From contig CANPDU010000024.1 in NCBI GenBank assembly GCA_947573135.1, positions 1 to 52,272 on the forward strand: a stretch of DNA of 52,272 nucleotides, read 5' to 3'. A model generated the notes under the pieces. That model was not told the DNA's origin. It did not search any database and saw only the letters and a program-made list of their open reading frames with translations. The DNA is from an uncultured Bacteroidales bacterium (GTDB taxonomy: Bacteria > Bacteroidota > Bacteroidia > Bacteroidales > Muribaculaceae). A program made the position numbers and the translations under genes. How positions within the stretch are numbered: position 1 is the stretch's first letter; each line of letters opens with the position of its first letter. Positions 27,791 to 43,448 of this stretch are shown here, piece by piece.

Positions 27791-28651
27791 ATGAAGAAGA
27801 TCCTATCGACAATTGTCCTTATATTTACGGTCAGCTGCGGGGCATATGCGGCGGCGAACGTGCGGTTTCATAACGAAGCCACAGATACTACACGCATAAA
27901 TGAAATCCTGATCGAGACGGCTGCTAAAAACTTTAAGACTTCGGGCGAGCGCAATGCATTCATTGCCCGTAAGTTTATAGCTACGCCTTATGTGGCCGGT
28001 ACTCTTGATCAGACACCCGAGCTTGTGACGGTCAATCTTGACGAACTCGACTGCACGACCTTTGTCGATATGGTTCTGGCTATGTCTTTCACTGTCGGTG
28101 AGGGGCGTACATCGTGGCGTGACTTTGTCTATAATCTCGAGCGCATGCGCTACCGCGGCGGCGAAGTCAACGGTTACGCGTCCAGGCTTCATTATATCAG
28201 TGACTGGTTTGTCGACAATATCCACAGGGGCAATATCGAAGACGCAACGCGGCTTTTCCCTAAGGTAAACTATATCGTGCGCACGATCGACTTCATGAGT
28301 TCAAACCGTGACAAATATCCCTTGTTGGCCGACGATGATGAATTCCGGCGCATTAAAAATATAGAAATTGGCTACCGCAGTCATCGCTTCCCCTATATCA
28401 AGACTGTCGACCTCGGCGGAAAGGAGACCAAAGCCGCTTTTCGCGAAGGCGATGCTGTCGCTCTTGTTTCGAGTCTGAAAAATCTTGATGTAAGCCATAT
28501 GGGGTTTGTCGTATTTGAAAACGGCGAGCCTTATCTGCTCCATGCATCAAGTTCTGACGGCAAGGTCGAACTGTCACAGCGTCCGCTCGCCGACTATATG
28601 AAGCGCAACCGTTCATTTGTCGGGCTGCGCATTGCCCGCCTCAAAAATTAA
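27791..28651 (+). CDS. DUF1460 N-acetylmuramoyl-L-alanine-amidase-like protein
   Basis: 286 residues from the ATG at 27791; an in-frame ATG 12 bp earlier is possible, and a frame opening at 27557 is not supported. The start gives a signal peptide MKKILSTIVLIFTVSCGAYA; Cys16 could instead be lipidated. The DUF1460 fold (NlpC/P60-like cysteine peptidase or amidase) is shown by LNLDELDCTTFVD-type sequence, with the likely nucleophile Cys88 in LDCTTFVDM and the histidine in VSHMGFV near 236. Members cut peptidoglycan fragments. It is the first gene of the signalling island, 18 bp before the LytTR gene, which ties the island to the cell wall. Confidence 0.85.
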   Translation: MKKILSTIVLIFTVSCGAYAAANVRFHNEATDTTRINEILIETAAKNFKTSGERNAFIARKFIATPYVAGTLDQTPELVTVNLDELDCTTFVDMVLAMSFTVGEGRTSWRDFVYNLERMRYRGGEVNGYASRLHYISDWFVDNIHRGNIEDATRLFPKVNYIVRTIDFMSSNRDKYPLLADDDEFRRIKNIEIGYRSHRFPYIKTVDLGGKETKAAFREGDAVALVSSLKNLDVSHMGFVVFENGEPYLLHASSSDGKVELSQRPLADYMKRNRSFVGLRIARLKN

Positions 28652-28669
28652 CCTTTTCATCTGATAGTC

Positions 28670-29056
28670 ATGAACCGCTCGAAATATCTTTATCTTAACT
28701 CTCGCGACGAATTTTTCAGAGTCGACATCTCAAAGATTGTTTACTTTGAGTCTGAAGGAAACTACACCAATATAATCCTCAACAATAAGATGATGGCGAC
28801 TATCTGTATGAATCTTGCTCGGATGCAGGAGATCCTCAACAGGAGTCTGAATGATGATGCAGCCGTTTTCGCGCGTATCGGCAAACGCCATATAATCAAC
28901 CTTACATACGTCTATCACATCGCCATTCTACGTCAGATCCTCGTTCTTAGCGATGGCGAAAATTTCGAATATCAGCTTCAGATTTCAAAGGATGCATTGA
29001 AAAGACTACGCGACATGTACGTCTCTGACATCACCGCTGAATTTTCGAGACAATAA
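28670..29056 (+). CDS. Stand-alone LytTR DNA-binding protein
   Basis: 128 residues forming a single LytTR domain with no receiver domain. Typical features are the N-terminal beta strands DEFFRVDISKIVYFESEGNYTNI (about 13-36), then FARIGKRHIINLTYVYHI (about 67-84). It is a transcription regulator that inserts into successive major grooves. Without a receiver or membrane part it must be controlled by partners, by expression or by phosphorylation by the kinases encoded downstream; that last idea is inference. It lies 30 bp before the FHA protein gene. Confidence 0.9.
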   Translation: MNRSKYLYLNSRDEFFRVDISKIVYFESEGNYTNIILNNKMMATICMNLARMQEILNRSLNDDAAVFARIGKRHIINLTYVYHIAILRQILVLSDGENFEYQLQISKDALKRLRDMYVSDITAEFSRQ

Positions 29057-29086
29057 CCGATCAATCAAAATGTTATAACATATACA

Positions 29087-29869
29087 ATGGAACAGTTAAA
29101 AGGCAAGACCATACTCATTGGCAAGGAACCCTCTCAGGGCCGGCTTCTCGTTGCGCTCCCCGGTAGCGGTAAGTCTGCGGCTATCGGTTTGCCGGGCTCT
29201 GTGCCGGCAAGCGTGAGCCGTTGTCGTCCCGCAGAAGGCATAGCCCATGCAAAAATATCTATAGATCAGAGCGGAAACATTATCCTGACTAATCTCAAAT
29301 CGCAGAACGCCACCTATGTCAACGGTTCTGAGATCGAGTCTAAGCGTATCGTTACCGACAGTTTAGTCTCATTGGGCAAAGATCATTTCGCCGTTAGCGT
29401 CCCGCTGATCCTTGAGACTGCACGCAAGCTTGTCGCGGTCGGTCAGGAACGCCCGCAGACGCCGGGCGATTCAGGCGCCAAACGCTTCAACATCGCTCAT
29501 CTCGAGCATGTCTGGAATGATCTCATCGCACGGCGCAAAGAGGTGCAGGCAAAGCAGAAGCAGATCAACCTTGTCCGTTCGGGATGCGGAGTGTTCACCA
29601 TGTGTGCGATGCCGTGTATTTTTCTTTTCGGGCCTATAGGTTATGTGCTTACAGGCATAGGTATAATAGGCAATATTTACAGTTTCGTCGGACTCAAGAA
29701 TGACGATGCTTCCGATGTGCTCGAACGTCTGAACGAAGACTTTCAGGACCGGTACGTTTGCCCAAACCCCGACTGCAACAAATTTCTCGGCAATCTCAGC
29801 TACAGACTCCTTAAAAGACAATATTCCATGCACTGCCCCTACTGCAAGTGCGAATACGTTGAAAAATAA
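29087..29869 (+). CDS. FHA-domain membrane protein with C-terminal zinc ribbon
   Basis: 260 residues. Residues 9-105 fit an FHA phosphothreonine-binding fold: LIGKEP at the start, VSRCRPAEGIAHAKI as the ligand loop (a histidine in the usual S-x-x-H area), then NATYVNG and VTDSLVSLGKDHFAV. Residues 140-162 are a basic helical linker and 165-203 are one or two membrane segments (CGVFTMCAMPCIFLFGPIGYV, TGIGIIGNIYSFVGL). The end carries CPNPDC (225-230) and CPYCKC (250-255), a four-cysteine zinc ribbon. It probably reads phosphorylation made by the kinase 11 bp downstream and scaffolds the complex at the membrane. Confidence 0.8.
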   Translation: MEQLKGKTILIGKEPSQGRLLVALPGSGKSAAIGLPGSVPASVSRCRPAEGIAHAKISIDQSGNIILTNLKSQNATYVNGSEIESKRIVTDSLVSLGKDHFAVSVPLILETARKLVAVGQERPQTPGDSGAKRFNIAHLEHVWNDLIARRKEVQAKQKQINLVRSGCGVFTMCAMPCIFLFGPIGYVLTGIGIIGNIYSFVGLKNDDASDVLERLNEDFQDRYVCPNPDCNKFLGNLSYRLLKRQYSMHCPYCKCEYVEK

Positions 29870-29880
29870 GTTCTATCGCC

Positions 29881-31089
29881 ATGGATATAAATTTGGAATT
29901 AAAACCCGGTACGCTGTTGCGCAATGGATCTTACCGGATAATCGAGGTCCTCGGACGCGGCGGCTTCGGCATAACTTATCTCGCAGAGCATATAATGCTT
30001 GGCATAAAGGTTGCGATCAAAGAATTTTTCCCGAAAGAGTTTTGCGACCGTGACTCCGAGACGACATATACTGTTACCCTCGGCACTCAGGGCAACCGCG
30101 AGCTCGTCGGACGTCTCCGTGCCAAGTTCATAAAGGAAGCACGTAACATCGCCCGTCTCAACCATCCTTATATCATTCATATTCAGGATATCTTCGAGGA
30201 GAACAATACGGCCTACTATGTCATGGATTATATCGAGGGCAGCAGCCTGCAGTCTATATGTAAGCAGCGCAAGTCGATTCCTCAGAAAGACGCCGTAGAC
30301 TATGTAACCAAGATAGCCGGAGCCCTCGAATATATCCATTCTCAGAGCATGACCCACCTTGACGTGAAGCCGGCCAACATCATGATCCGCAAAAGCGACA
30401 ACGCTCCCGTGCTGATCGACTTCGGCCTGTCGAAACAATATACCTCGGAAGGCGAGCAGACCTCGACGACGCCCGTCGGCATAAGCCACGGTTACGCTCC
30501 GATCGAGCAGTACCGTCAGGGCGGTGTAAGCGAATTTTCTCCTGCTACCGACATCTATGCGCTTGGCGCTACGCTCTACAAACTCATTACAGGCATCACT
30601 CCGCCCGAAGCCCCGTTGCTCCTCGACTCAGGTCTGCATCGGCCCGACGGCATCGATGAAAATGTCTGGCGCGCGATATCCAAGGCTATGTCAGTGTCGA
30701 AATCGGGTCGTTATTCTTCGGCATCCGATTTTGCCGCAGCCCTTAATTCGACTTCTGTCACTGATGACGATGATGAAGATACGGTTATCATTGACGAAAA
30801 GCCCGAGGAGCCGGAGAAACCGAAGCCGGTTAAGCCTGAAAAGCCGTCTCTGGTCATCGGCGTTCCCGAGAAAGAGCATAAGACCAACAAATCTCTTCAG
30901 ATAATCATAATTGCTATCATCGCTTTCATTGTGATTGCAATAATCGTTTCATTGTCAGGTGGTGACGGTGCTTCTTCTGATGATAGTGACTATTGGGATT
31001 CGGCAGTCGTCGAGGAAGTCGTTCCTGTCGACGACTATTATCTATATGATGACAGCATAGTCGAAATCGTAGATTCCTGTGCATGGTAG
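29881..31089 (+). CDS. Hanks-type Ser/Thr protein kinase 1, membrane-anchored
   Basis: 402 residues. The kinase domain spans about 18-290: glycine loop GRGGFG (25-30), VAIK with Lys47, catalytic loop HLDVKPAN with Asp161, DFG at 180-182, then GYAPIEQ and DIYALGATLYKLITG. The arginine of the usual HRD is leucine, a non-RD kinase, so activation-loop phosphorylation may not be needed. A Pro/Glu/Lys-rich linker (305-335) leads to one membrane helix (339-358, IIIIAIIAFIVIAIIVSL) and a short acidic outer tail of about 44 residues, rich in Asp and Tyr. The catalytic side is cytoplasmic. Part of the first half-operon. Confidence 0.93.
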   Translation: MDINLELKPGTLLRNGSYRIIEVLGRGGFGITYLAEHIMLGIKVAIKEFFPKEFCDRDSETTYTVTLGTQGNRELVGRLRAKFIKEARNIARLNHPYIIHIQDIFEENNTAYYVMDYIEGSSLQSICKQRKSIPQKDAVDYVTKIAGALEYIHSQSMTHLDVKPANIMIRKSDNAPVLIDFGLSKQYTSEGEQTSTTPVGISHGYAPIEQYRQGGVSEFSPATDIYALGATLYKLITGITPPEAPLLLDSGLHRPDGIDENVWRAISKAMSVSKSGRYSSASDFAAALNSTSVTDDDDEDTVIIDEKPEEPEKPKPVKPEKPSLVIGVPEKEHKTNKSLQIIIIAIIAFIVIAIIVSLSGGDGASSDDSDYWDSAVVEEVVPVDDYYLYDDSIVEIVDSCAW

Positions 31090-31116
31090 TGCTAACGCTC
31101 GTTTATTTTGCTCACT

Positions 31117-31686
31117 ATGAAAAAGAAAACCGTCAGCAATGTGAAATCAGATATCGCCAATGCGGCTTCTGCCGCAGCAGGCGCAGCCGCCGGCGTTGTG
31201 GCCGGCGCGGCATTCTCGCCCGAGCAAGCCTCGGCGCAGACCGCTCACCCCGAGGCTCATCCTCACCATTTCTCACCCCGGCCCGAGCCGGTCACTGAGC
31301 CTGCCCCGGAACCCATGCCCCGGAACGTTCCGGCGCCTGAACCCGACGTCAACGCCGCTCAGTCCGAGCCAACATCCGATGATATAGAAGTTATCGGTTA
31401 TGATCGTATTGCTGCCGATGACGGCTCGATCAGAGACGTTGCTGTTGTCAGCGCCGGCGGCAACGAGATAGCGTTTATTGATGTCGATCTCGACGGAGAG
31501 GCCGATTTCATAATGTGCGACGCCAATCAAAATCAGGTGATCGACGATGGCGAGTTAGTCGACGTTCAGGGCGAAGGCATCTCCATGCAGCCGCTTCAGG
31601 ATGCGGCCGGATTCGATCCCCTTTTCGCGCAGAACGATCTTCCCGACTATGTCAACGACGCCGATGTCGACTCGTTCATGGCTTAA
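31117..31686 (+). CDS. Acidic EF-hand-like protein A of the kinase operon
   Basis: 189 residues from the ATG at 31117; a TTG start 9 bp earlier is less likely. The N-terminus is basic, then an Ala/Gly-rich stretch (about 13-32) could be a membrane or packing helix. A Pro/Glu/His-rich linker follows. The C-terminal half has DDIEVIGYDRI, a beta segment, and IDVDLDGEADFIMCDANQN with VIDDGELVDV, which look like two back-to-back calcium-loop (D.D.DG..D) motifs. A longer protein of the same build occurs at 36230 in the second half of the island, also with DIEV repeats. I do not know a named family. It may be a calcium-dependent or phospho-acceptor adaptor for the kinases on either side. Confidence 0.7.
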   Translation: MKKKTVSNVKSDIANAASAAAGAAAGVVAGAAFSPEQASAQTAHPEAHPHHFSPRPEPVTEPAPEPMPRNVPAPEPDVNAAQSEPTSDDIEVIGYDRIAADDGSIRDVAVVSAGGNEIAFIDVDLDGEADFIMCDANQNQVIDDGELVDVQGEGISMQPLQDAAGFDPLFAQNDLPDYVNDADVDSFMA

Positions 31687-31715
31687 ATATATACACTGTC
31701 ACGTTTCTATAAATT

Positions 31716-33233
31716 ATGGCAAATCAAGCTCTCAGCCCCGGCTCAACTCTCCGCGGCGGAAAATATAAAATCAGAAAAATCCTCGGACAGGGCAGTTTCG
31801 GCATCACTTACCTTGCCTCTGCCAAAATATCCTCTCAGGGCAATCTCGGCACAATGGAAGTCGAGGTCAAAGTCGCTATCAAAGAGTTCTTCATGAGCGA
31901 GGTCAACGGTCGTCAGACCGACGGCAGCTCGGTCGACGGTTCCTCAGGCTCGGTGTTTACCAATTATCGCCGTAAGTTCCGCAAAGAGGCCGAAAACCTC
32001 GCTGCCCTCAAGCACAGCAATATTGTCAGCGTCTTCGATGTCTTCGACGAGAACAATACGACCTACTATGCAATGGAGTATATCGACGGCAGCAACCTCG
32101 ACGATTACATCCGCGAGCGCGGCTCGATTCCCGAGCATGAGGCTCTGAATATTATTACTGAGATCGGTGGCGCGGTGACCTATATGCATTCCCGGAAGAT
32201 GCTCCATCTCGACATCAAGCCGAAAAACATAATGCGCAAAGCCGGAGGCACCGGATGTCTTATCGATTTTGGCCTTTCGAAGCAGTTTACCGACGACGGC
32301 GAGCCGGAGTCGAGCACTTCGATCGGACTGGGCACACCCGGCTACGCTCCCCTCGAACAGGCCGGCTACAGCCGCGACGGCAGTTTTCCGGCGACTCTCG
32401 ACGTCTATGCCCTCGGCGCGACTCTCTTCAAGATGCTCACCGGCAAGCGTCCGCCCGAGGCTACCTATATCCTAAACGACGGTTTCCCTTCCGCAATGCT
32501 GGCCGACAAAGGCATCTCCGCCGCTACTTGCGCCGCCGTGAAGAAGGCTATGTCGCCTCTACGCAAAGACCGCTTTCAGGATATCATGTCTTTTATTGAC
32601 GCATTGGGCTGCAGTCATTATAATTTTACTCCCGACGATGATGATGATGAGGCTACGGTCGTCGGATCTCAGTCGTCCGACAGCTCTTCACCTTCTGAAA
32701 ATCAGGGATATACCGCTCCTCAGTCTGAGGCTGATCAACCGGATGGGCCTGATCCTGAAGTTCCCGAATGGGAACCCGAAACCCCGTGGTGGCGCAAAAA
32801 ATGGACATTGATTGCCGCAGCTGTGGCGGCGATAGTGGTTGTTGTCTTTATGCTGATCCCGCGCGGTACACCCGTTGCCAAACCGATAGATACCGTGACT
32901 GACTTTGCATGGGACTCTCCATTAGGACCTGCTGTCTATTTCGGCGATCTCAATGTTCAGTATAACTGCCCCGACGGCCGCGGTATCGCGAAAATTACCG
33001 GCGGCGAGTATGCCGGGAGTGTATATGAAGGTGACTTTGTCAACGGCAACATGGACGGTCAGGCCACTTATACTCAGGATAACGGTGACACATTTGTCGG
33101 AACGTTCAAAAATAATCAGTATCAACAGGGTCGCTACACCATAAAGGCGACAGGCGAATATTTCGAGGGAACGTTCGAGAACGGCCAGCCTGCCGCAGGC
33201 GACTGGTACGATAAAGACGGCAAGAAATTATAA
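31716..33233 (+). CDS. Hanks-type Ser/Thr protein kinase 2 with C-terminal MORN repeats
   Basis: 505 residues. Kinase domain about 17-297: GQGSFG (24-29), VAIK Lys56, HLDIKPKN with Asp166, DFG at 184-186, GTPGYAPLEQ. As in kinase 1, the catalytic loop is HLD rather than HRD. An acidic Ser-rich linker (305-355) precedes a membrane helix (364-382). Residues 405-495 hold about four MORN-type repeats (GYVYEGDFVNG-like: YEGDFVNGNMDG, GDTFVGTFKNNQYQ, GEYFEGTFENG), predicted to be outside the inner membrane. A 483-bp tract of its kinase region is identical to kinase 3. It probably senses or binds something in the periplasm through the MORN sheet. Confidence 0.93.
   Translation: MANQALSPGSTLRGGKYKIRKILGQGSFGITYLASAKISSQGNLGTMEVEVKVAIKEFFMSEVNGRQTDGSSVDGSSGSVFTNYRRKFRKEAENLAALKHSNIVSVFDVFDENNTTYYAMEYIDGSNLDDYIRERGSIPEHEALNIITEIGGAVTYMHSRKMLHLDIKPKNIMRKAGGTGCLIDFGLSKQFTDDGEPESSTSIGLGTPGYAPLEQAGYSRDGSFPATLDVYALGATLFKMLTGKRPPEATYILNDGFPSAMLADKGISAATCAAVKKAMSPLRKDRFQDIMSFIDALGCSHYNFTPDDDDDEATVVGSQSSDSSSPSENQGYTAPQSEADQPDGPDPEVPEWEPETPWWRKKWTLIAAAVAAIVVVVFMLIPRGTPVAKPIDTVTDFAWDSPLGPAVYFGDLNVQYNCPDGRGIAKITGGEYAGSVYEGDFVNGNMDGQATYTQDNGDTFVGTFKNNQYQQGRYTIKATGEYFEGTFENGQPAAGDWYDKDGKKL
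31775..32257 (+). repeat. Identical 483-bp tract shared with kinase 3 (copy 1)
   Basis: By base-by-base reading, this stretch is identical to 34472-34954. Before it, the two genes differ within the first 60 bp; after it, they differ mostly at synonymous sites. The tract spans the kinase N-lobe through the catalytic loop and suggests recent gene conversion or duplication. Confidence 0.85.
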
Positions 33234-33258
33234 ACTGACTATGGATAGAAAATCGGCT

Positions 33259-34383
33259 ATGAAAAAATTATCATTAATCGCGGCGCTATTGGTCTCTGTC
33301 GTGATTTTCACCGGCGAAGCCTCAGCCCAGGGCCGCGTAACCCGTCAGGAGAAACCCAAGACCGAGCCCACTGAAAAGGTTCGGCCAAAGACTGAGTCAC
33401 AACCCGTCGCTCAATCGAAAATCGAACTGAGTCAGCCTGACGGTTCTATAAACGGCCACGGCTATGTCGATCTCGGCCTGCCGAGCGGTCTGAAATGGGC
33501 TACATGCAATATTGGAGCTTCTAAGCCTGAGCAATATGGTGGTTATTATTCATGGGGAGATACAGATGTTAAAAAATCATATCTTTATGATAATACCGTT
33601 ACAGCTAAAAAGCAAAAATCTAAGATTCGCTCATTAGGTATAATTGATGCTTCTGATAACCTTACTCCTGAATTTGATGCGGCTTGTGTGAATTGGAGTG
33701 CCGATTGGCGGATGCCGACCATAACGGAGTTCCAGGAACTGCTTGATAATTGTACATGGACATGGGGCTCATATGCCGGTGTACGTGGTTTTCGTGCAAC
33801 TGGGCCTAATGGCCGTTCTATCTTTTTCCCTGCTACTGGAGATCGTGCAGGAGAGACTCTCGAAGATGTCGGCCGGCATATAAACTATTGGTCCTCTACT
33901 TATAGTGATTATGATGACGGCTACTATGCATGTGCTTTTTTACGAACCCTTTTTGTTGGAGATGACCACAATCTGAGAACCCGTCGCTGGATTCGGAGTA
34001 GCGGCTGCCCCATTCGTCCCGTTTTAGTTGAAAAAAAGGAAATATCAGAAGAACACAGTCACGGAGAGATTATGTCGGAGCCTGATAGTCAGCCTGAATT
34101 TCCAGGCGGACAATCTGCTATGTATAAATGGCTTGCTGATAATATCAAATTTCCGCCCACTACTCTTAACAACGGAGGTGTTCAGGGAAGAGTTATTGTT
34201 GGTTTTGTAGTCTCGAAAACGGGTGCGGTTAAGGATGTCAAGATTATTCGTAGTTGTCATCCGGCTCTCGACGAGGAAGTTGTAAGGGTTGTGAAAGCTA
34301 TGCCGACGTGGACTCCTGGCAGTCTCAATGGAGAGCCTGTAGATGTTGCTTATACTTTACCTCTCTCATTTAGACAACAGTAA
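33259..34383 (+). CDS. Secreted Fib_succ-type domain fused to TonB C-terminal domain
   Basis: 374 residues from the ATG at 33259, which gives a clean signal peptide (MKKLSLIAALLVSVVIFTGEASAQ); an in-frame ATG 18 bp earlier is possible. After a basic linker, residues 70-275 resemble the Fibrobacter succinogenes major paralogous domain (VDLGLPSGLKWATCNIG, YYSWGD, WRMPTITEFQELLD, YWSSTYSD), a fold of secreted proteins with an unclear role. Residues 285-374 are a TonB_C domain (PEFPGGQSAMYKWLADNIKFPP, GRVIVGFVVSKTGAVKDVKI, MPTWTPG). There is no N-terminal membrane anchor as in true TonB. The region from about 33520 has lower GC than its neighbours. It sits 25 bp after kinase 2 and 29 bp before kinase 3, so it is probably a periplasmic partner or substrate. 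Confidence 0.85.
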   Translation: MKKLSLIAALLVSVVIFTGEASAQGRVTRQEKPKTEPTEKVRPKTESQPVAQSKIELSQPDGSINGHGYVDLGLPSGLKWATCNIGASKPEQYGGYYSWGDTDVKKSYLYDNTVTAKKQKSKIRSLGIIDASDNLTPEFDAACVNWSADWRMPTITEFQELLDNCTWTWGSYAGVRGFRATGPNGRSIFFPATGDRAGETLEDVGRHINYWSSTYSDYDDGYYACAFLRTLFVGDDHNLRTRRWIRSSGCPIRPVLVEKKEISEEHSHGEIMSEPDSQPEFPGGQSAMYKWLADNIKFPPTTLNNGGVQGRVIVGFVVSKTGAVKDVKIIRSCHPALDEEVVRVVKAMPTWTPGSLNGEPVDVAYTLPLSFRQQ

Positions 34384-34412
34384 TCATTAGAAAAATTGTA
34401 GATTATATATAA

Positions 34413-35963
34413 ATGGCAAATCAAGCTCTCGCCCCGGGCTCAACTCTCCGCGGCGGAAAATATAAGATCGAAAAAATCCTCGGACAGGGCAGTTTCGGCA
34501 TCACTTACCTTGCCTCTGCCAAAATATCCTCTCAGGGCAATCTCGGCACAATGGAAGTCGAGGTCAAAGTCGCTATCAAAGAGTTCTTCATGAGCGAGGT
34601 CAACGGTCGTCAGACCGACGGCAGCTCGGTCGACGGTTCCTCAGGCTCGGTGTTTACCAATTATCGCCGTAAGTTCCGCAAAGAGGCCGAAAACCTCGCT
34701 GCCCTCAAGCACAGCAATATTGTCAGCGTCTTCGATGTCTTCGACGAGAACAATACGACCTACTATGCAATGGAGTATATCGACGGCAGCAACCTCGACG
34801 ATTACATCCGCGAGCGCGGCTCGATTCCCGAGCATGAGGCTCTGAATATTATTACTGAGATCGGTGGCGCGGTGACCTATATGCATTCCCGGAAGATGCT
34901 CCATCTCGACATCAAGCCGAAAAACATAATGCGCAAAGCCGGAGGCACCGGATGCCTTATCGATTTCGGTCTGTCGAAGCAATTTACCGACGACGGCGAG
35001 CCGGAGTCGAGTACCTCGATCGGACTGGGCACCCCCGGCTACGCTCCCATCGAACAGGCCGGCTATACCCGCGACGGCAGTTTCCCGGCGACTCTCGACA
35101 TCTATGCCCTCGGCGCGACTCTCTTCAAGATGCTCACGGGCAAGCGTCTGCCCGAGGCTACCTATATCCTCAACGACGGCTTCCCCGACGCTATGCTTGC
35201 CGAGAAAGGTATTTGTGCCTCAACTCGCGCCGCCGTGAAGAAGGCCATGGCGCCTCTACGCAAAGACCGCTTTCAGGACGTACGCTCTTTCATCGACGCC
35301 CTGGGCTACACTCCGCCGACATATGAAGATTATAAAGATGATAAAGACGAAGCGACGGTCATTGATCAGCCGTCAGACCGTCCGGAGCAAGAAGTTCAGA
35401 AAAAATCCGCGACGCCTGTTGAAAGGAATGCTGTTCAGACAAATTCACCGCGTCGCAGCATCCCCGCTTGGATCCTGGCATTGATTTGCTGTGTGGTTGT
35501 CGGTGTGGTACTGGTATTAGTTTGGCCGCATAATGGCGATAAGACAGTTGCTGATGAAAATGAGGCTGTATCAACTGTAGAGAGCAATTATGATATCGGC
35601 AGAAAATTTCTTGCCGCAAACAGTCAGCGTGCCGGCGTGGCTGTCACTTCAAGCGGCCTGCAATATGAAGTCCTGAAAGCCGGCGATGGCCCGAAACCGA
35701 ATGCTGATGATGTTGTGACAGTGCGTTATACCGGCAAATTGCCCGACGGCACGGTTTTTGATTCTGCTGAAGAACCGGTGAGTTTTAAGCTTTCGGCCGT
35801 TATAAAAGGTTGGCAGGAAGCACTTCAACTTATGAAAGCCGGTTCCGAATGGAGACTCTTTATCCCGTCCGAGCTTGCTTACGGCTCAAATGGTGCGGGC
35901 GATCTCATTCCTCCCGATCAGGTTCTTATCTTTGATGTGACGCTTCTTGATATTGCGAAATAA
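34413..35963 (+). CDS. Hanks-type Ser/Thr protein kinase 3 with C-terminal FKBP prolyl isomerase
   Basis: 516 residues. The kinase domain (about 17-297) is nearly the same as in kinase 2: Lys56, HLDIKPKN with Asp166, DFG 184-186. A basic/acidic linker (305-348) is followed by one membrane helix (351-371, PAWILALICCVVVGVVLVLVW). Residues 408-514 form an FKBP-type peptidyl-prolyl isomerase (GLQYEVLKAGDGPKPNADD, VRYTGKLPDGTVFDSA, VIKGWQEALQLMKAGSEW, FIPSELAYGSNG). The isomerase is predicted to lie in the periplasm and the kinase in the cytoplasm. FKBP domains usually act as folding helpers; here the domain could sense unfolded protein or act on partners. Last gene of the first half-operon. Confidence 0.94.
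   Translation: MANQALAPGSTLRGGKYKIEKILGQGSFGITYLASAKISSQGNLGTMEVEVKVAIKEFFMSEVNGRQTDGSSVDGSSGSVFTNYRRKFRKEAENLAALKHSNIVSVFDVFDENNTTYYAMEYIDGSNLDDYIRERGSIPEHEALNIITEIGGAVTYMHSRKMLHLDIKPKNIMRKAGGTGCLIDFGLSKQFTDDGEPESSTSIGLGTPGYAPIEQAGYTRDGSFPATLDIYALGATLFKMLTGKRLPEATYILNDGFPDAMLAEKGICASTRAAVKKAMAPLRKDRFQDVRSFIDALGYTPPTYEDYKDDKDEATVIDQPSDRPEQEVQKKSATPVERNAVQTNSPRRSIPAWILALICCVVVGVVLVLVWPHNGDKTVADENEAVSTVESNYDIGRKFLAANSQRAGVAVTSSGLQYEVLKAGDGPKPNADDVVTVRYTGKLPDGTVFDSAEEPVSFKLSAVIKGWQEALQLMKAGSEWRLFIPSELAYGSNGAGDLIPPDQVLIFDVTLLDIAK
34472..34954 (+). repeat. Identical 483-bp tract shared with kinase 2 (copy 2)
   Basis: Exact partner of 31775-32257. The flanks have diverged: kinase 3 goes on to an FKBP domain and kinase 2 to MORN repeats. 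Confidence 0.85.
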
Positions 35964-35998
35964 CTGATTGTCTGTTTTTTATTTTTGGTTATTTCGCA

Positions 35999-36127
35999 GA
36001 TCATTCTGCATAAATGATCCTTACGGTAATCATTTTGACAAAGTGATCCTTGTAAAGATCACTTTGTGATTTTGATCTTTACAAAGATCATTTCTGTAAA
36101 TTGATCCTTATAAAGATTGTTTCCTGT
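35999..36127. repeat. Tandem array of 29-bp palindromic units
   Basis: The left motif TGATCCTT (variant TGATCTTT) has its GATC at 36016, 36045, 36074 and 36103. The right motif GATCA-TTT (variants AATCATTT, GATTGTTT) starts at 35999, 36028, 36057, 36086 and 36115. Both follow an exact 29-bp period. Each unit is itself an inverted repeat, the best being ACAAAGTGATC/GATCACTTTGT (36038-36067) and GATCTTT-AC-AAAGATC (36074-36089). There are no spacers, so this is not CRISPR. It lies between kinase 3 and the promoter of the second half-operon; it could be an operator array, a stack of hairpins in RNA, or both. Confidence 0.85.
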
Positions 36128-36164
36128 AATAATCCGCATATTTCATACAGAAAAGGTTTTAATA

Positions 36165-36196
36165 TTTGTCGGCTGAAAATAAACGGCTTATCTTTG
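36165..36196 (+). promoter_or_regulatory. Promoter of the second half of the signalling island
   Basis: TTTG (36165-36168), a 20-bp spacer and TATCTTTG (36189-36196) match the Bacteroidetes consensus fully. It lies 34 bp before the ATG at 36230 and directly after the 29-bp palindrome array. Confidence 0.8.
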
Positions 36197-36229
36197 CGTC
36201 ATAAATCAAACCAATAATTTTTTATCGAC

Positions 36230-37189
36230 ATGAAAACTGATAATTACGACAACGAAGAAACGCGTCTTGAGGGCGCTCAGAACGCTACCGGCTCACAGGC
36301 TTCCGACTCAGGTGACAAATCTAAATCAAAGAGCGGTGCATGGAAAAGCGCGGCCGCCGGTGCTGCATCCGGTGTTGTCATCGGCACTCTTTCGACTACT
36401 CTGATGGGGATGAAAAGTGCCGGAGATGAGCCTGAACAGCCGGCCGACAACCATAAAGAAGAATTGTCTCACCCCGAGTGGGTCGACGATCAGGTGCAGG
36501 TCGCCACTTCGGTCAGTGATAATATGTCGTTCGGTCAGGCCTTTGCCGCTGCGCGTGCCGAGGTCGGTGCGGGCGGTTGTTTCGAGTGGCACGGCAAACT
36601 TTACGGCACCTACACTGCCGAGGAGTGGAACTCAATGTCGGCTGAGGAGCGTGCCGAATACGGCGACCATTTCAGCTGGAACCATATCGACCATTCGTCG
36701 GGCAATGTCGCTCAGCATTCTCATGCTGCGGCCGCTAATCATGCTCCCGCAGCCGCCGATGATGATATCGAGGTCGTTTCGGTGAATCATCATGAGGCGC
36801 AGAATGTAACTCCCGGTCACGAGAATGCCGCTGAACATAACACGCAGGCTCCACATGTTTCTCAGGCCGGAATGACCGAACCGGGTTCGGACGACGGAGA
36901 TATCGAGGTGCTCGGGGTCTTTCATGATTCTGATTCCGGAGCCAATTACGGCGCGCTGAATGTCGACGGGCAGGATGTTGTTCTTGTCGATGTCAACGGT
37001 GACATGACTTTCGACTATATGGCTGTCGACAGTAATCATAACGGTGAGATCGACGAGGGTGAGGTTGCTGACATCAGTGACGGAAATCTGACGGTCGCCG
37101 ATCTTGGAGGTTTCACGAATTCCACTGACGACCTGCTTGCGTCGGACAATGCTCCTGATTATTCATCGGACGCCGTTTATGATGTTTAA
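36230..37189 (+). CDS. Acidic EF-hand-like protein B of the kinase operon
   Basis: 319 residues. A charged N-terminus (1-36) precedes an Ala/Gly-rich hydrophobic stretch (38-62, AAAGAASGVVIGTLSTTLMG), probably a membrane helix. Residues 100-150 contain FEWHGKLYGTYTAEEWNSMSAEERAEYGDHFSW, a compact motif not seen in protein A. Two DIEV blocks (about 178 and 224) follow His-rich linkers. The C-terminus has LVDVNGDMTFDYMAVDSNHN and GEIDEGEVADI, calcium-loop-like and aligned with protein A at 31117. First gene of the second half-operon. An adaptor role between kinases and effectors is inference; no named family is recognised. Confidence 0.7.
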   Translation: MKTDNYDNEETRLEGAQNATGSQASDSGDKSKSKSGAWKSAAAGAASGVVIGTLSTTLMGMKSAGDEPEQPADNHKEELSHPEWVDDQVQVATSVSDNMSFGQAFAAARAEVGAGGCFEWHGKLYGTYTAEEWNSMSAEERAEYGDHFSWNHIDHSSGNVAQHSHAAAANHAPAAADDDIEVVSVNHHEAQNVTPGHENAAEHNTQAPHVSQAGMTEPGSDDGDIEVLGVFHDSDSGANYGALNVDGQDVVLVDVNGDMTFDYMAVDSNHNGEIDEGEVADISDGNLTVADLGGFTNSTDDLLASDNAPDYSSDAVYDV

Positions 37190-37931
37190 ACAAACGCTTA
37201 ATCTGGTCCGTGCTGTTGCAGTCGTTCTGCTGTTCGGGCTGTCGGTCTCTGCCGGCGCCCACACATATCTTGTGTCGGTAGGCATTAACGACTATTCGGC
37301 GTTCCCTCATAAGATGACTGATCTGAGGCTGCCTGTCAGCGACGCGAGGACGATAGCTTCGCTTTATGCCGGCAACACGTCGGTCGACTATGCTCTTCTG
37401 CTCGATGAGAAAGCTACGTCCCGACGTATTGTCAAAGCTATAAAGAAGGTTTTCAGCGAGGCTTCGGCCGACGATATTGTGGTCTTCTTTTTCAGCGGTC
37501 ACGGATATCCCGGCGGTTTCTGCGCCTATGACGGCAATATCTCTTACGACGAGGTGCGCAGGGCAATGGCCGAAAGCAAGTGCGACAACAAGATGATGTT
37601 TGTCGACGCCTGTCGCTCAGGTGGCATGAGAGTCGACCGTTCGGCGTCGAAACGCGAGCTCAATGCCGCCAAAGACGCTAACGTAATGCTCTTTCTGTCA
37701 TCGCGCAACAATGAGAATTCGATCGAACGCGCTAATATGAAAAACGGTTTTTTCACTACATGTCTGCAGAAAGGCCTCAAAGGCAATGCCGACACTGACC
37801 GCGACCGTGTGATCACCGCTAAAGAGCTTTTCGACTTCGTCAGCGGCGGAGTGGTCAAGATCTCTGACGGTAAGCAGCATCCCGTGATGTGGGGCAACTT
37901 CAGCGACGACATGGTGGTAATGAAATGGTAG
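37182..37931 (+). CDS. Exported caspase-family (C14) protease 1
   Basis: 249 residues from the ATG at 37182, which overlaps the end of the previous gene by 8 bp; an ATG 3 bp earlier is equally possible, and the longer open frame from 37104 is not. Residues 1-26 form a signal peptide (VVLLFGLSVSAGAHT). The p20-like caspase fold follows: YLVSVGINDY, DARTIASLY, then FFFSGHGYPGG with catalytic His107 and MFVDACRSGG with catalytic Cys144. Later MLFLSSRNNENS and GFFTTCLQKGLKG complete the core. Caspase-like bacterial proteases usually cut after Arg, Lys or Asp; the specificity here is not visible. Its periplasmic location next to kinase and FHA genes is unusual. Confidence 0.92.
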   Translation: MFKQTLNLVRAVAVVLLFGLSVSAGAHTYLVSVGINDYSAFPHKMTDLRLPVSDARTIASLYAGNTSVDYALLLDEKATSRRIVKAIKKVFSEASADDIVVFFFSGHGYPGGFCAYDGNISYDEVRRAMAESKCDNKMMFVDACRSGGMRVDRSASKRELNAAKDANVMLFLSSRNNENSIERANMKNGFFTTCLQKGLKGNADTDRDRVITAKELFDFVSGGVVKISDGKQHPVMWGNFSDDMVVMKW

Positions 37932-38545
37932 ATAAATTTAATCCGATGGATGATATTATTCAGATAAAATGTCCCTTCTGCGGATCTGTTCTCTCGATCA
38001 AGAACCGTCCCGGCATCGAGAGCAAGAGTGCTGCCTGTCCGGTCTGCAGCCACAAGTATCCTTTTTCTCAGTTCAAAAAAGTTACTCCCCGGCCATCGGC
38101 TGATGATGATCCTGACACCGATTATTCCGGCGTTGAAGAGCACACGTCTTACGCTCATGCTTCGTCATCTCATACGGCTGATCCCGGAGTCAATTATGTG
38201 CTTGGACGTCTGTCGCTTGCCGGATCGGATGTCTCTTTCCGCCTGAAACCGGGCCGTAATGTGGTAGGGCGCCGGGCCGCTAAGTCCGAGGCCGATTTTC
38301 AGATCGACACGGCCGACAGCCGGGCGATGAGCCGCGAACACATTGTGATCGAAGTTAAGAATGTGCCCGGCAAAGGTTTTGTTCACACGTTGTCTCTCTT
38401 CAAAGAGAAGGTTAATCCTACTTTTATAGGCAAAGAGCCGCTGGTCTACGGCGACCGCATAGTACTCGCCCACGGCGACCGGATCATTCTGCCCGATGCC
38501 GAGCTGAAGTTTGAGATCCCTGACGAAGAGGCAACTGAAATCTGA
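37925..38545 (+). CDS. Zinc-ribbon plus FHA-domain protein
   Basis: 206 residues from the ATG at 37925, which overlaps the caspase stop codon by 7 bp. Four cysteines (Cys16, Cys19, Cys38, Cys41, in CPFCGS and CPVCSH) form an N-terminal zinc ribbon. A disordered Asp/Ser/His linker (55-88) leads to an FHA domain at about 108-197: VVGRR (114-118), SREHIVIEV with Ser136 and His139 as phosphothreonine-loop residues, then PTFIGKEPLVYGDRIVLAHGDRI. It is soluble and cytoplasmic, in contrast to the first FHA protein. It is predicted to bind phosphothreonines made by the island's kinases; the zinc ribbon may recruit another partner. Confidence 0.9.
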   Translation: MVDKFNPMDDIIQIKCPFCGSVLSIKNRPGIESKSAACPVCSHKYPFSQFKKVTPRPSADDDPDTDYSGVEEHTSYAHASSSHTADPGVNYVLGRLSLAGSDVSFRLKPGRNVVGRRAAKSEADFQIDTADSRAMSREHIVIEVKNVPGKGFVHTLSLFKEKVNPTFIGKEPLVYGDRIVLAHGDRIILPDAELKFEIPDEEATEI

Positions 38546-38550
38546 CGACT

Positions 38551-39510
38551 ATGAAATATATTATTGAAGCATACAGCATCTGGGAATATGGCAAGCGCAA
38601 GGATGCCGACGGCAATCCTCATCAAGAGGACAGTCTTTATCCCGATCCTGAAAATCTGTCGGCTTCTGACCGCACGTTTATCCTTTGCGACGGCATGGGT
38701 GGTCATGATGCCGGTGAAGTAGCGAGCGCTACGGTCTGCGAGGCAATGAGCCGTTCTGTCCTTGACGACGGCCACGACAGTGAAGGCTTATTCACACCCG
38801 ATGATTTTTCGGCTGCCCTCACTGCGGCTTTCGATGCCCTTGACCTTAAGGACACCGGTGCCGAAAAGAAGATGGGCACGACGATGACATTCCTCAAGCT
38901 GCATAATGGTGGCGCCACAATCGCTCATATCGGCGACAGCCGCGTCTATCATATCCGTCCCGGCAAAACCGGCGCTGAAACGAAGATACTTCACGAAACT
39001 CGCGACCACTCGCTTGTGAATGATCTTATCCGTATCAACGAACTCCGCAAGGAGGATGTTGCTTCCTTCGGACAGAAGAATGTGATCACCCGCGCGATGC
39101 AGCCCAATATGGAGCATCGTCCTAAAGCCGATGTGTATAATACGGCTGACATCCGCCCCGGGGACTATTTTTATATGTGTTCCGACGGCATGCTTGAGCA
39201 GGCTGAGATGGAGTCGGGCGAGAGCTTGCTGAATATTTTCTCCGATCAGGGGGGTGATGCGCGTCGCAAGACCGAAATTCTGACCGGCGCTACGGCCGAT
39301 AATCGAGACAATCACACGGCTTTTATTATACGCATCGTCGATGTGATCGGTGATTCTCCGCAGCTGGAGCGTCGTAAGGTTGTTATCGCCGATAAGCCGG
39401 TAGAATCCGGGTCCGGTCGCGCATGGCTCTATGTAATCTTGGCGGCAGTTCTGATTGCGGCAATATGTTATGCGATTTGGAAATACCTGAAACCTGACGG
39501 GCTTTTTTGA
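38551..39510 (+). CDS. PP2C-family Ser/Thr phosphatase, C-terminally membrane-anchored
   Basis: 319 residues, 5 bp after the FHA gene. Metal-binding motifs of PP2C are present in order: QED with Asp27, FILCDGMGGHDAG (Asp47), MGTTMTFL, HIGDSRVYH (128-131 GDSR), DHSLVNDL, CSDGMLE (211-213) and the final RDNHTAF (Asp253, Asn254). A single membrane helix at about 291-310 (AWLYVILAAVLIAAICYAIW) with a 9-residue end anchors it to the inner membrane, catalytic side in the cytoplasm. It removes phosphate from Ser/Thr and so opposes the three kinases. Last gene of the island. Confidence 0.95.
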   Translation: MKYIIEAYSIWEYGKRKDADGNPHQEDSLYPDPENLSASDRTFILCDGMGGHDAGEVASATVCEAMSRSVLDDGHDSEGLFTPDDFSAALTAAFDALDLKDTGAEKKMGTTMTFLKLHNGGATIAHIGDSRVYHIRPGKTGAETKILHETRDHSLVNDLIRINELRKEDVASFGQKNVITRAMQPNMEHRPKADVYNTADIRPGDYFYMCSDGMLEQAEMESGESLLNIFSDQGGDARRKTEILTGATADNRDNHTAFIIRIVDVIGDSPQLERRKVVIADKPVESGSGRAWLYVILAAVLIAAICYAIWKYLKPDGLF

Positions 39511-39681: not shown

Positions 39682-40203
39682 ATGAAAAACGAAAAATTTT
39701 CTCTCTGCAAATCATTCTACGCACCGATATCCGTACTCAGTGACGAACAGCTCGGTCGTCTTTTCCGCGCCATCTATCTCTATCAGCTCGGTCAGAGTGT
39801 CGAGCCTGCTGACGATATCAGAGTGGCTTATCTATTTTTTGTAAACGAGTTTGAGCGTGATGCCGCCCGTCACGCAAAGCGCAGTGCTCAGCCCGCGGAT
39901 ACTGACAAGTCTGACCGGTCTGACAAGTCCGACAAGTCTGATCTGTCCGACGTCTCTGACCTGTCCGCCAAGTCCGACCGCCCCTCGGACCGTGATGATG
40001 ACAGCCGCCGCTCTGATATCGGAGGCTATTTTGACTGTGCGACCGGACAGACATATCTGTGTGATCCCGATGACCGCAAACGCTACGATCCCGATGAATA
40101 TCCGTTTATCAGGGCTCCTGATCCGCTGGCCGGATGGACCGGCATTCAGGTTGTGCCCCCTGAATTCATTCCATTCATGAGAAAACTCGGCATCTGTCGC
40201 TAA
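39682..40203 (+). CDS. DUF6291-like protein with SDKSD repeat linker
   Basis: 173 residues. Residues 1-65 (FSLCKSFYAPISVLSDEQLGRLFRAIYLY, then FVNEFERDAARHAKR) resemble the DUF6291 N-terminal helix bundle seen in phage- and plasmid-linked Bacteroidetes proteins. Residues 74-100 are a low-complexity linker built on S-D-K/L (SDRSDKSDKSDLSDVSD), encoded by 9-bp-period DNA. The C-terminal 60 residues (YFDCATGQTYLCDPDDRKRYDPDEYPF) are unfamiliar but well formed. It is not part of the kinase operon, because a palindrome and its own -7 box come between. The function is unknown; a mobile-element origin is possible but no other element genes are nearby. Confidence 0.65.
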   Translation: MKNEKFSLCKSFYAPISVLSDEQLGRLFRAIYLYQLGQSVEPADDIRVAYLFFVNEFERDAARHAKRSAQPADTDKSDRSDKSDKSDLSDVSDLSAKSDRPSDRDDDSRRSDIGGYFDCATGQTYLCDPDDRKRYDPDEYPFIRAPDPLAGWTGIQVVPPEFIPFMRKLGICR

Positions 40204-42266: not shown

Positions 42267-42270
<4 letters not shown>

Positions 42271-43448
42271 TTGTTGAGTTTCAATGATTTCCACTTGTCG
42301 GTCAGGTCGGTTGATATGTGTACCGTGGGTGTCTGAGCCTGTCCGTTGATGCGCCGTGACTGTAAGGCCACTTGTTCTGTAACATATTTACTGAGTTCTC
42401 CGAGGCTTGCTTTGCCTTCTGATTCCTGAAGTTTTTTGAGAAGGTAATATGTGAACAGACCATGAGATTCCTGATCGTGTGAGTAGGCGGCTTCGTCGCC
42501 TGAGGTTGCCGACAGTACAACAAGATTTCCGGTGGGCTGTGATTCTTTCGGCTTAATCTTGACTCCGCGAGCTGCTACAAGCATATCGCCGTCGCGGTTG
42601 GCTCCGCTGAAGCATGCATCTAAAAGGACAACGCACTGTTTGAGATTGGCCGATCCTAATTTATTATAGAACTCATCGAGAGGGAAACAGATATCTGTGT
42701 CTTTTCCGTCTGCATCGACAGGCAGAAGATAGGCGCCTTTAGTTTTGTTGTCGGGAATGCCGTGTCCGGCATAGTAGACAAGAAGATTTGCCTCGCCGTT
42801 CAGAAGTTCTGTGATCGACAGCATGTCATTTATCGCTTTACGCATCTTGCCATATGAGAGATTTGACAGATACATTACATTTTCACCGGGCATTCCGAGG
42901 GTTCGTATGCAATATTCTTTCAAGGCGAGACCGTCGTTGCATGCATTGTCGACTTTCGACACATACTCATATTCTTCGTTAGATATTATGAGTGCGAAAG
43001 ATTTTTCGTTTTTGGAGCCTGTCAGAGGTGCTTTGTTGACACCATGGGTGACATCGATACCTTTGACTTTGCTTGCCGATTTTTGAGGAGTATTGACAAA
43101 TTCGGTTACAGTCGGAGCCGTTCGTGTCATTAGCCGGGCAGTCTCACTTTCGTCGATTTTAAGCAGATATACATGCCCCGTGGTGTCAACCGGCTTTTTG
43201 GGAACATTGATGTCATAATACACAAAGTTGTCGGAAACAAATGACAGGTGCACAGGCATTTCATTTTTCGGCACCTCCAGGACGTAGGGCAACGATGATA
43301 TCACTTCCGTTCGTCCGCTCGTGCCGACTGTCATCATAATCGGTTCTTTGACTGAGCCGGTCAGTTTAATTTTGACGGTCTTTGCTGCAAAAGCAGGGAA
43401 AGATACCGCGAGCATAATTATGGCAATGAATAAATTCAGTGATTTCAT
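42267..43448 (-). CDS. Exported caspase-family (C14) protease 2
   Basis: 393 residues. Signal peptide MKSLNLFIAIIMLAVSFPAFA, then a beta-rich N-terminal domain of about 120 residues (VKIKLTGSVKEPIMMTVGTSG), which caspase 1 does not have. The caspase core starts near 148 (KSFALIISNEEYEYVSKVDNAC): LVYYAGHG with catalytic His229, then VVLLDACFSG with catalytic Cys279, followed by NLVVLSATSGDEAAY and HGLFTYYLLKKLQ. Both catalytic residues are intact. It overlaps both neighbours by 4 bp. The extra N-terminal domain may bind the substrate or control activation. It is not a close copy of the caspase at 37182. Confidence 0.93.

Follow-up and report, generated by a model that had tools for sequence, protein, structure and literature searches.

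We analyzed a 52,272-nucleotide stretch of DNA, referred to here as the window, from an uncultured bacterium of the Muribaculaceae (Bacteroidales; assembly GCA_947573135.1, contig CANPDU010000024.1, forward strand), which carries an island of kinase, FHA, PP2C and caspase genes. The original prediction described twelve adjacent plus-strand genes at 27791-39510, and all twelve lie at that place and on that strand. Their Pfam matches comprise AmiA-like, LytTR, FHA (two), kinase (three), MORN, FKBP, TonB_C, Peptidase_C14 and PP2C families, in agreement with the three kinases, two FHA proteins, PP2C phosphatase, LytTR protein and caspase that had been proposed. The island proper extends from 28670 to 39510 and contains 11 genes, all on the plus strand, to which the coordinates below refer unless noted. 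These genes encode a LytTR protein, FHA-A, three Ser/Thr kinases (K1 to K3), two related proteins of a family that we call EF (EF1 and EF2), a Fib_succ/TonB_C protein, a caspase, FHA-B and a PP2C phosphatase. Neighboring genes overlap or are separated by 5-30 bp, except for a 266-bp gap between K3 and EF2, which makes it likely that the island comprises two or more transcription units.

The island opens with the gene for a single-domain LytTR DNA-binding protein (28670-29056; PF04397, E = 2.4e-10). FHA-A (29087-29869; PF00498, E = 5.5e-6) consists of an FHA domain, a hydrophobic segment at residues 177-195 and a Cys-rich, zinc-ribbon-like C-terminal end, as judged by alignment and hydropathy. 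FHA-B (37922-38545; PF00498, E = 2.5e-6; ATG at 37922 in an open reading frame (ORF) that runs from a GTG at 37889) carries a zinc ribbon at its N-terminus, followed by the FHA domain. The conserved phosphothreonine-binding residues (Ser/Arg/His/Asn) are present in this family. The SxxH pattern is found in 38 of 42 FHA-A and 47 of 60 FHA-B sequences, and S148 and R149 of FHA-B account for 96% of residues at those alignment columns. By eye, FHA-A from the window has an insertion between the SR and H positions. The last gene encodes the PP2C phosphatase (38551-39510; PF13672, E = 4.8e-7), which has a C-terminal transmembrane segment (residues 291-309), and of 80 PP2C proteins, 79 or 80 retain each of the four Asp residues examined.

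By hydropathy, each kinase has a transmembrane segment: one strong segment at residues 341-359 in K1 (29881-31089; PF00069, E = 4.7e-39), 363-381 in K2 (31716-33233) and 352-370 in K3 (34413-35963). Beyond this segment, Pfam identifies a MORN repeat in K2 and an FKBP domain in K3. Catalytic residues are kept in 90-91 of 91 kinases, those of the window included. The K2 and K3 genes are 94.5% identical over 901 bp (31716-32616 and 34413-35313), with codons 21-180 completely identical at the DNA level and unrelated C-termini, indicating that one is a recent copy of the other, or the product of gene conversion, with its outer domain swapped. In a scan of 81 kinases (78 taken from a set of 87, plus the window's three), the non-kinase domains included Sel1 (8), MORN (6), FGE-sulfatase (5), WG repeat (4), TonB_C (2) and FKBP (1). 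These accessory domains appear to be swapped modules, presumably all located past the transmembrane helix. The Fib_succ/Lcl_C-like protein with a TonB_C domain (33241-34383; PF03544, E = 2.4e-14), which has a hydrophobic N-terminus, is related to a module that is fused to kinases at other loci.

The two proteins originally described as EF-hand-like adaptors are members of one family that has DxDxDG loops and no Pfam or NCBIfam model of its own; Pfam EF-hand_1 reaches only 4 of 59 members, and those weakly. Neither EF1 (31117-31686; ATG at 31117, in an ORF that runs from a TTG at 31108) nor EF2 (36230-37189) gave a family match above cut-off in Pfam or NCBIfam. EF2 is probably a single-pass membrane protein. 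Its hydrophobic stretch (residues 41-59, mean 1.39) is weak and glycine-rich, and is preceded by basic residues. Structure prediction yielded two confident domains, at residues ~90-146 and 223-298, for which no clear relative was found. EF1 is a second, tag-less member of the family (the tag is described below), and paralogues of its type appear, from their sequences, to resemble exported proteins more. Several EF paralogues in the genus are distant from any PP2C gene (L143-L145 and L147, in our numbering of loci). Those of L143 (10217-11122) and L144 are tag-less and off-island, and the L143 gene stands beside a tricorn-like protease and sugar/metabolic genes.

The caspase gene (37179-37931) overlaps EF2 by 11 bp. 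Its product has the full caspase fold of Peptidase C14 together with the His-Cys dyad (His108/Cys145), which is kept in 39 of 39 caspases including that of the window. All 39 also have a hydrophobic N-terminus in a plain hydropathy window, consistent with an export leader. The genome encodes seven C14 genes in all. One of these is a second, longer caspase-like gene at 42267-43448 on the minus strand, past the enolase gene and outside the island.

The twelfth gene of the original set encodes an AmiA-like/DUF1460 protein (27791-28651; PF07313, E = 2.6e-42) that had been proposed as an exported effector. Enolase turned up in 44 of the 49 genus genomes searched, and eight such loci (L135-L142) were examined as flanks. 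None of the eight shows any island protein. The AmiA-like gene is 0.1-3.7 kb from enolase in four of them (L135, L136, L138 and L141); L139 has an extracytoplasmic function (ECF) sigma homologue 6 kb from enolase, and the remaining flank stretches contain neither gene. Because the AmiA-like gene lies near enolase in island-free relatives, we assign it to the host background and exclude it from the island. Peptidoglycan hydrolases, which had been counted among the outputs, drop out with it. The gene set is real, with 11 genes rather than twelve, and its components and their order recur in tens of genomes. In the closest relative, whose enolase is 97% identical, the island's place between the AmiA-like and enolase genes is taken by a single exported-type ORF of ~595 codons (L135, ~9.9-11.8 kb), which suggests that this slot is a cargo hotspot. 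Island G+C content (0.508) shows no break from the flanks (0.507 and 0.505). Immediately 3' of the island, a plus-strand gene at 39682-40203 encodes a DUF6291 protein that includes a tract of Ser-Asp-Lys repeats. This gene was not seen in the eight island-free loci and may mark the right border.

The original prediction staked itself on conservation of the neighborhood, and synteny proved to be strongly conserved across Bacteroidales genomes and beyond. We scanned named genomes for PP2C relatives and analyzed the loci of the best 80 of at least 565; titles of metagenome-assembled genomes are approximate. Co-directional runs with PP2C contain FHA in 63 loci, kinase in 60, EF in 41, LytTR in 38 and caspase in 35, with 34 of the 80 runs extending to the upstream end of the locus. 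FHA, EF, kinase and PP2C share one run in 37 loci, 30 of which also include the caspase and 21 both caspase and LytTR; PP2C stands alone in 13. The gene immediately 5' of PP2C encodes an FHA protein in 59 of the 80 loci. Outside the runs, the same models match few of 384 ORFs (EF 0, caspase 3, FHA 3, kinase 4 and LytTR 4). The models were refined partly on these same loci, which favors the finding of members but not their placement. The recurrence of gene set and order is far beyond chance. Across the 22 loci with all six core proteins, the window included, pairwise distances of these proteins correlate for all 15 pairs (r = 0.68-0.88), and none of the 15 values was reached by 999 permutations.

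The 21 fullest loci carry Bacteroidales titles. In five loci from Dyadobacter, Larkinella and Spirosoma, LytTR is missing but two FHA genes accompany EF, PP2C, caspase and kinase; a Fibrella locus has PP2C and kinase only. Dyadobacter belongs to the Cytophagales, so the gene set extends to that order; we take Larkinella, Spirosoma and Fibrella to be Cytophagales as well. By eye, no caspase appears in 13 Parabacteroides, Tannerella and Tannerellaceae loci, where EF is found only in L063; eight have the order LytTR-FHA-FHA-PP2C-kinase, and four more are cut upstream. Five loci (L096, L107, L112, L118 and L126) continue this order with an unknown protein of ~310 residues and one of ~715 residues and have neither caspase nor EF. 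The ~715-residue protein of L096, the sole one tested, matches Kelch/fn3.

Searches with single baits gave a similar picture. With PP2C as bait, 43 of 99 genomes (own included) had some match, 14 of them at E < 1e-45. LytTR, FHA-A, EF, caspase, FHA-B and PP2C occur together in 6 of the 20 loci retrieved (L036, L037, L039, L040, L043 and L044), several of the 20 being cut by contig ends. At E 0.001, the EF profile matched 13 of 49 genus genomes, 11 of them among the 33 good genomes; order-wide, it matched 10 of 295 at E 1e-8, own included in both. We inspected seven of the nine other order genomes, two of which (G074 and G084) had already matched in the PP2C search. FHA and PP2C accompany EF in five (L161-L164 and L166), EF is found with FHA, caspase and kinase in L167, and with kinase only in L165. 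Together with the off-island EF paralogues, these results show that the system is old, modular and patchy. Accessory genes differ widely among loci. Judged by titles and the starts of abstracts among the matches listed, we found no account of this gene set in the open-access literature. The gene set is a real and conserved system, apparently one without a name, composed of known kinds of domains together with an unnamed signature family, EF.

The N-terminal tails of EF proteins carry what we call an acidic-threonine tag. EF2 has NEETRLE (36251-36271), continuing as NEETRLEG, and other members have NEETI or EDTVYD, with openings such as MNTEDTVYD, MANNEETVL, MINEETIYM and MSEQTQII. We wrote the tag as the motif [DE](x)T[RVIQKTL][FLIVYM] and searched 62 EF N-tails (2324 residues). 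This analysis found 73 motifs in 33 tails, compared to 4.6 ± 2.2 motifs in 4.0 tails after shuffling. Motif density is 31.4 per 1000 residues in the tails, whereas the remaining part of EF has 1.86 and a set of 1069 unannotated proteins from the same loci has 1.79. Similar sites lie elsewhere in the island: DDDDEDTVIID (30763-30795) between the catalytic domain and membrane segment of K1, DDDDDEATVV in K2 (32634-32663), DKDEATVID in K3 (35340-35366) and DEEATEI at the C-terminus of FHA-B (38522-38542). A D-x-[DE]-x-T type end was seen by eye in 13 of 60 FHA-B proteins, including this one and mostly closer relatives. Kinase juxtamembrane segments (n = 47) contain 20 motifs versus 6.9 ± 2.8 in shuffles, and FHA C-ends contain 14 versus 6.1. 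The motif is not enriched in LytTR proteins (12 versus 12.3) or caspases (10 versus 19.6). In its sequence, the EF tag resembles FHA ligands.

We infer from these observations that the island encodes a trans-envelope phosphothreonine relay, which is the best explanation at hand and stands, in our estimate, about an even chance of being correct. This agrees with the writer, reader and eraser circuit with envelope-facing parts that was first envisaged, although the acidic-threonine tag on EF, the probable link between the parts, did not figure in that prediction. The kinases, with cytoplasmic catalytic domains and variable parts past the single helix, would sense an envelope or outside signal and phosphorylate the tag threonine in the short cytoplasmic N-tail of EF. 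They may also modify the similar motifs in FHA-B and in their own juxtamembrane segments. FHA-A and FHA-B would then bind phosphorylated tags to assemble a complex on the membrane, and PP2C would strip the phosphate. EF would cross the membrane once through its glycine-rich helix, and its outer domains with the DxDxDG loop would regulate the exported caspase, whose gene overlaps that of EF. The predicted output is cleavage of envelope proteins by the caspase, and LytTR might set expression, perhaps at an array of palindromes 5' of EF2. Such a substrate has a precedent in the inner-membrane protein TssL, to which Fha binds: its Thr14, located in the N-terminal cytoplasmic domain, is phosphorylated in a PpkA-dependent manner, as described in PMC3953482. 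The broader proposal, a phylum-wide Bacteroidota system in which a tag written by kinases, read by FHA proteins and erased by PP2C switches an exported caspase across the inner membrane, is more tentative, and we rate its chances at somewhat below even.

Several findings weigh against this interpretation. The caspase has no counterpart in 7 of the 37 otherwise complete loci and is thus not always the output. Leaders were called from a plain hydropathy window, and the two from Dyadobacter look more like membrane anchors. The EF2 helix is only mildly hydrophobic and has a predicted local distance difference test (pLDDT) score below 50, which makes its topology uncertain. Nor is the motif exclusive to EF: some excess is also seen in whole FHA proteins (103 versus 55.5 in shuffles), kinase domains (104 versus 79) and kinase C-terminal parts (24 versus 17). 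PP2C tails show no excess (8 versus 8.2). No motif is present in 29 of the 62 EF tails, including EF1-type paralogues and several Cytophagales members. Moreover, the motif was defined after EF tails had been inspected, and for this reason we tested held-out tails (16 proteins minus one that was cut, two in which no helix was found and one already used). The 12 tails contain 7 motifs compared to 1.12 ± 1.12 by shuffling, with a maximum of 6 in 2000 shuffles, but the set is small, and the motif occurs in only 4 of the 12 tails while shuffles reached 5. The correlated distances of the core proteins can reflect shared host descent. Finally, one point in favor of the relay needs qualification: three of the four Pfam kinases in the genome lie in the island, as do its one PP2C_2 match and its one FHA match, but this FHA count is a lower bound; the search overlooked FHA-B, and further FHA genes may have been overlooked too.

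We considered the possibility that the true output is transcription. In such an envelope-homeostasis sensor, the kinases, PP2C and FHA proteins would tune LytTR, and the exported proteins, caspase included, would be regulated cargo. An FHA gene directly follows the LytTR gene in 38 of 38 runs with a separate LytTR gene (a 39th LytTR is fused to FHA), and the 13 Parabacteroides, Tannerella and Tannerellaceae loci do without caspase and, apart from L063, without EF. The gap upstream of EF2 also contains three palindromes (about TGATCYTTRYAAAGATCA) at 29-bp spacing (36044-36119, neither strand assigned), which may form an operator. There are three, perhaps four, of these 18-bp palindromes, and elsewhere in the genome the pattern occurs as isolated, dispersed matches. 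The array is followed by TATCTTTG (36189-36196), a Bacteroidota-type -7 box; by eye, TAACTTTG also lies upstream of EF2 in L031. No comparable array precedes EF in the relatives inspected (L031, L051-L055 and L066; L056 has no gap). LytTR proteins typically bind a 21-22 bp repeat, and no repeat of this type stood out. Against a transcriptional output, the five Dyadobacter, Larkinella and Spirosoma loci lack LytTR yet keep FHA, EF, PP2C, kinase and caspase, and the tag points to EF rather than to LytTR, where motif counts are at shuffle level. On balance we find this alternative doubtful.

A conflict or anti-phage role, in which the caspase would kill or disable the cell upon infection or a breach of the envelope, is in our judgment unlikely. 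The distribution is patchy, the nearest relative has a different gene in this position, and the kinases match MADS and PD-T4-6 kinase models. However, for K1 and K2 the mad6 match is confined to the catalytic part (residues 50-258 and 50-257 of 659, among the best 25 of 35 families), no MADS partner was found among the other eight island proteins scanned (EF1 and K3 left out), and K1 scores 136 bits against NF047741, for which the cut-off is 460. The suggested PADLOC check, run with 10 proteins, returned no defense system, but only generic kinase matches, a partial caspase match and weak ZorA and Cas1 matches. The TerY-P triad and the GAP1-N2 kinase-PP2C-vWA system were rejected as well, as none of the 12 genes gave a vWA match at E values of 0.1 or below. 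An analogy exists with caspase conflict systems, such as the two-gene EACC1-caspase system of Kaur et al. 2020 (PMC7159879), where, as described there, a membrane protein with one helix and a patch of small residues is likewise encoded directly upstream of the caspase. The island caspase differs in having a leader, standing alone and sitting with a phospho-circuit, and scores 68.9 bits against NF047832, below the curated cut-off of 140. EF2 matched no EACC1-named model in Pfam or NCBIfam, libraries that were not checked for the presence of such a model.

Further points against a conflict role are that predictions place the caspase and EF domains outside the cytoplasm, that no nuclease or pore-forming domain was found by Pfam in the 12 genes, that G+C content is equal in island and flanks, and that the genome has seven C14 genes. 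Carriage on plasmids was rejected since EF2, the sole island protein searched there, has no plasmid match. Carriage by viruses was also rejected: 29 viral-contig stretches matched the PP2C pattern, four of which encode weak relatives. In a phage collection, PP2C matched 18 records. For 17 of these, identity was 24.7-31.3% across 48-80% of its length; the remaining record, at 47% identity, is an island fragment. A contig from human feces deposited as 'Bacteriophage sp.' (L168; MT838606.1, 5069 bp) has the order LytTR-FHA-EF-FHA-PP2C and is probably bacterial DNA within a virome set. Nothing in the PADLOC, Pfam, plasmid or viral searches shows a defense role for the island.

We think it very unlikely that the island uses threonine phosphorylation to switch a secretion machine whose genes lie elsewhere, such as a type VI secretion system (T6SS). 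PppA is the phosphatase of the T6SS threonine-phosphorylation pathway, and the island shares the PpkA/Fha logic by encoding a Hanks kinase, PP2C and FHA protein together. In that pathway, as presented in PMC3953482, a threonine near the cytoplasmic N-terminus of inner-membrane TssL is likewise the FHA ligand. The island adds a caspase, the EF family, a second FHA protein, LytTR and several kinases with variable outer domains. A search of the genome for VipB/TssC (PF05943) gave no match, in line with the original prediction, which saw no T6SS machine genes in this region; an E. coli positive control matched, and this single family may miss divergent forms of the machine. The island is therefore not filed as a T6SS pathway. 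No secretion-machine family appeared among 10 representative accessory proteins scanned. That the island is a loose cluster without joint function, as the wide variation of accessory genes might suggest, is extremely improbable given that core genes and their order recur across classes and co-vary.

Other phosphothreonine systems share parts of this architecture. The GarA/OdhI switch of Actinobacteria features an 'ETT' motif. This string was not found in the text of PMC2784874, according to which an FHA domain in that switch reads a phosphothreonine tail, as may be compared with the FHA-B tail DEEATEI. As described in that source, GarA/OdhI is a soluble metabolic regulator without a membrane relay or protease. 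The corynebacterial pknA-pknB-ppp-FHA operon likewise joins kinases, a phosphatase and two FHA genes, but includes the cell-division genes ftsW and ftsI, and the available text names no caspase, EF or LytTR (PMC2784874). The prophage kinase-kinase-phosphatase (KKP) module also unites kinases and phosphatase, and is set apart by its description only, in that the available text of PMC11341870 does not mention the FHA/EF/caspase set.

Of the threonine-phosphorylation genes found in this genome, the majority belong to the island, which also carries a predicted substrate site. To our knowledge, few triggers are known for bacterial caspases and few substrates have been assigned to the Ser/Thr kinase circuits of Bacteroidota. 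With a locus this compact, the questions of caspase trigger and kinase substrate could both be tested in one strain, and EF serves as the signature family for locating the system elsewhere. If the phosphothreonine relay operates as proposed, it would provide commensals with a defined route from a cytoplasmic signal outward to an envelope protease.

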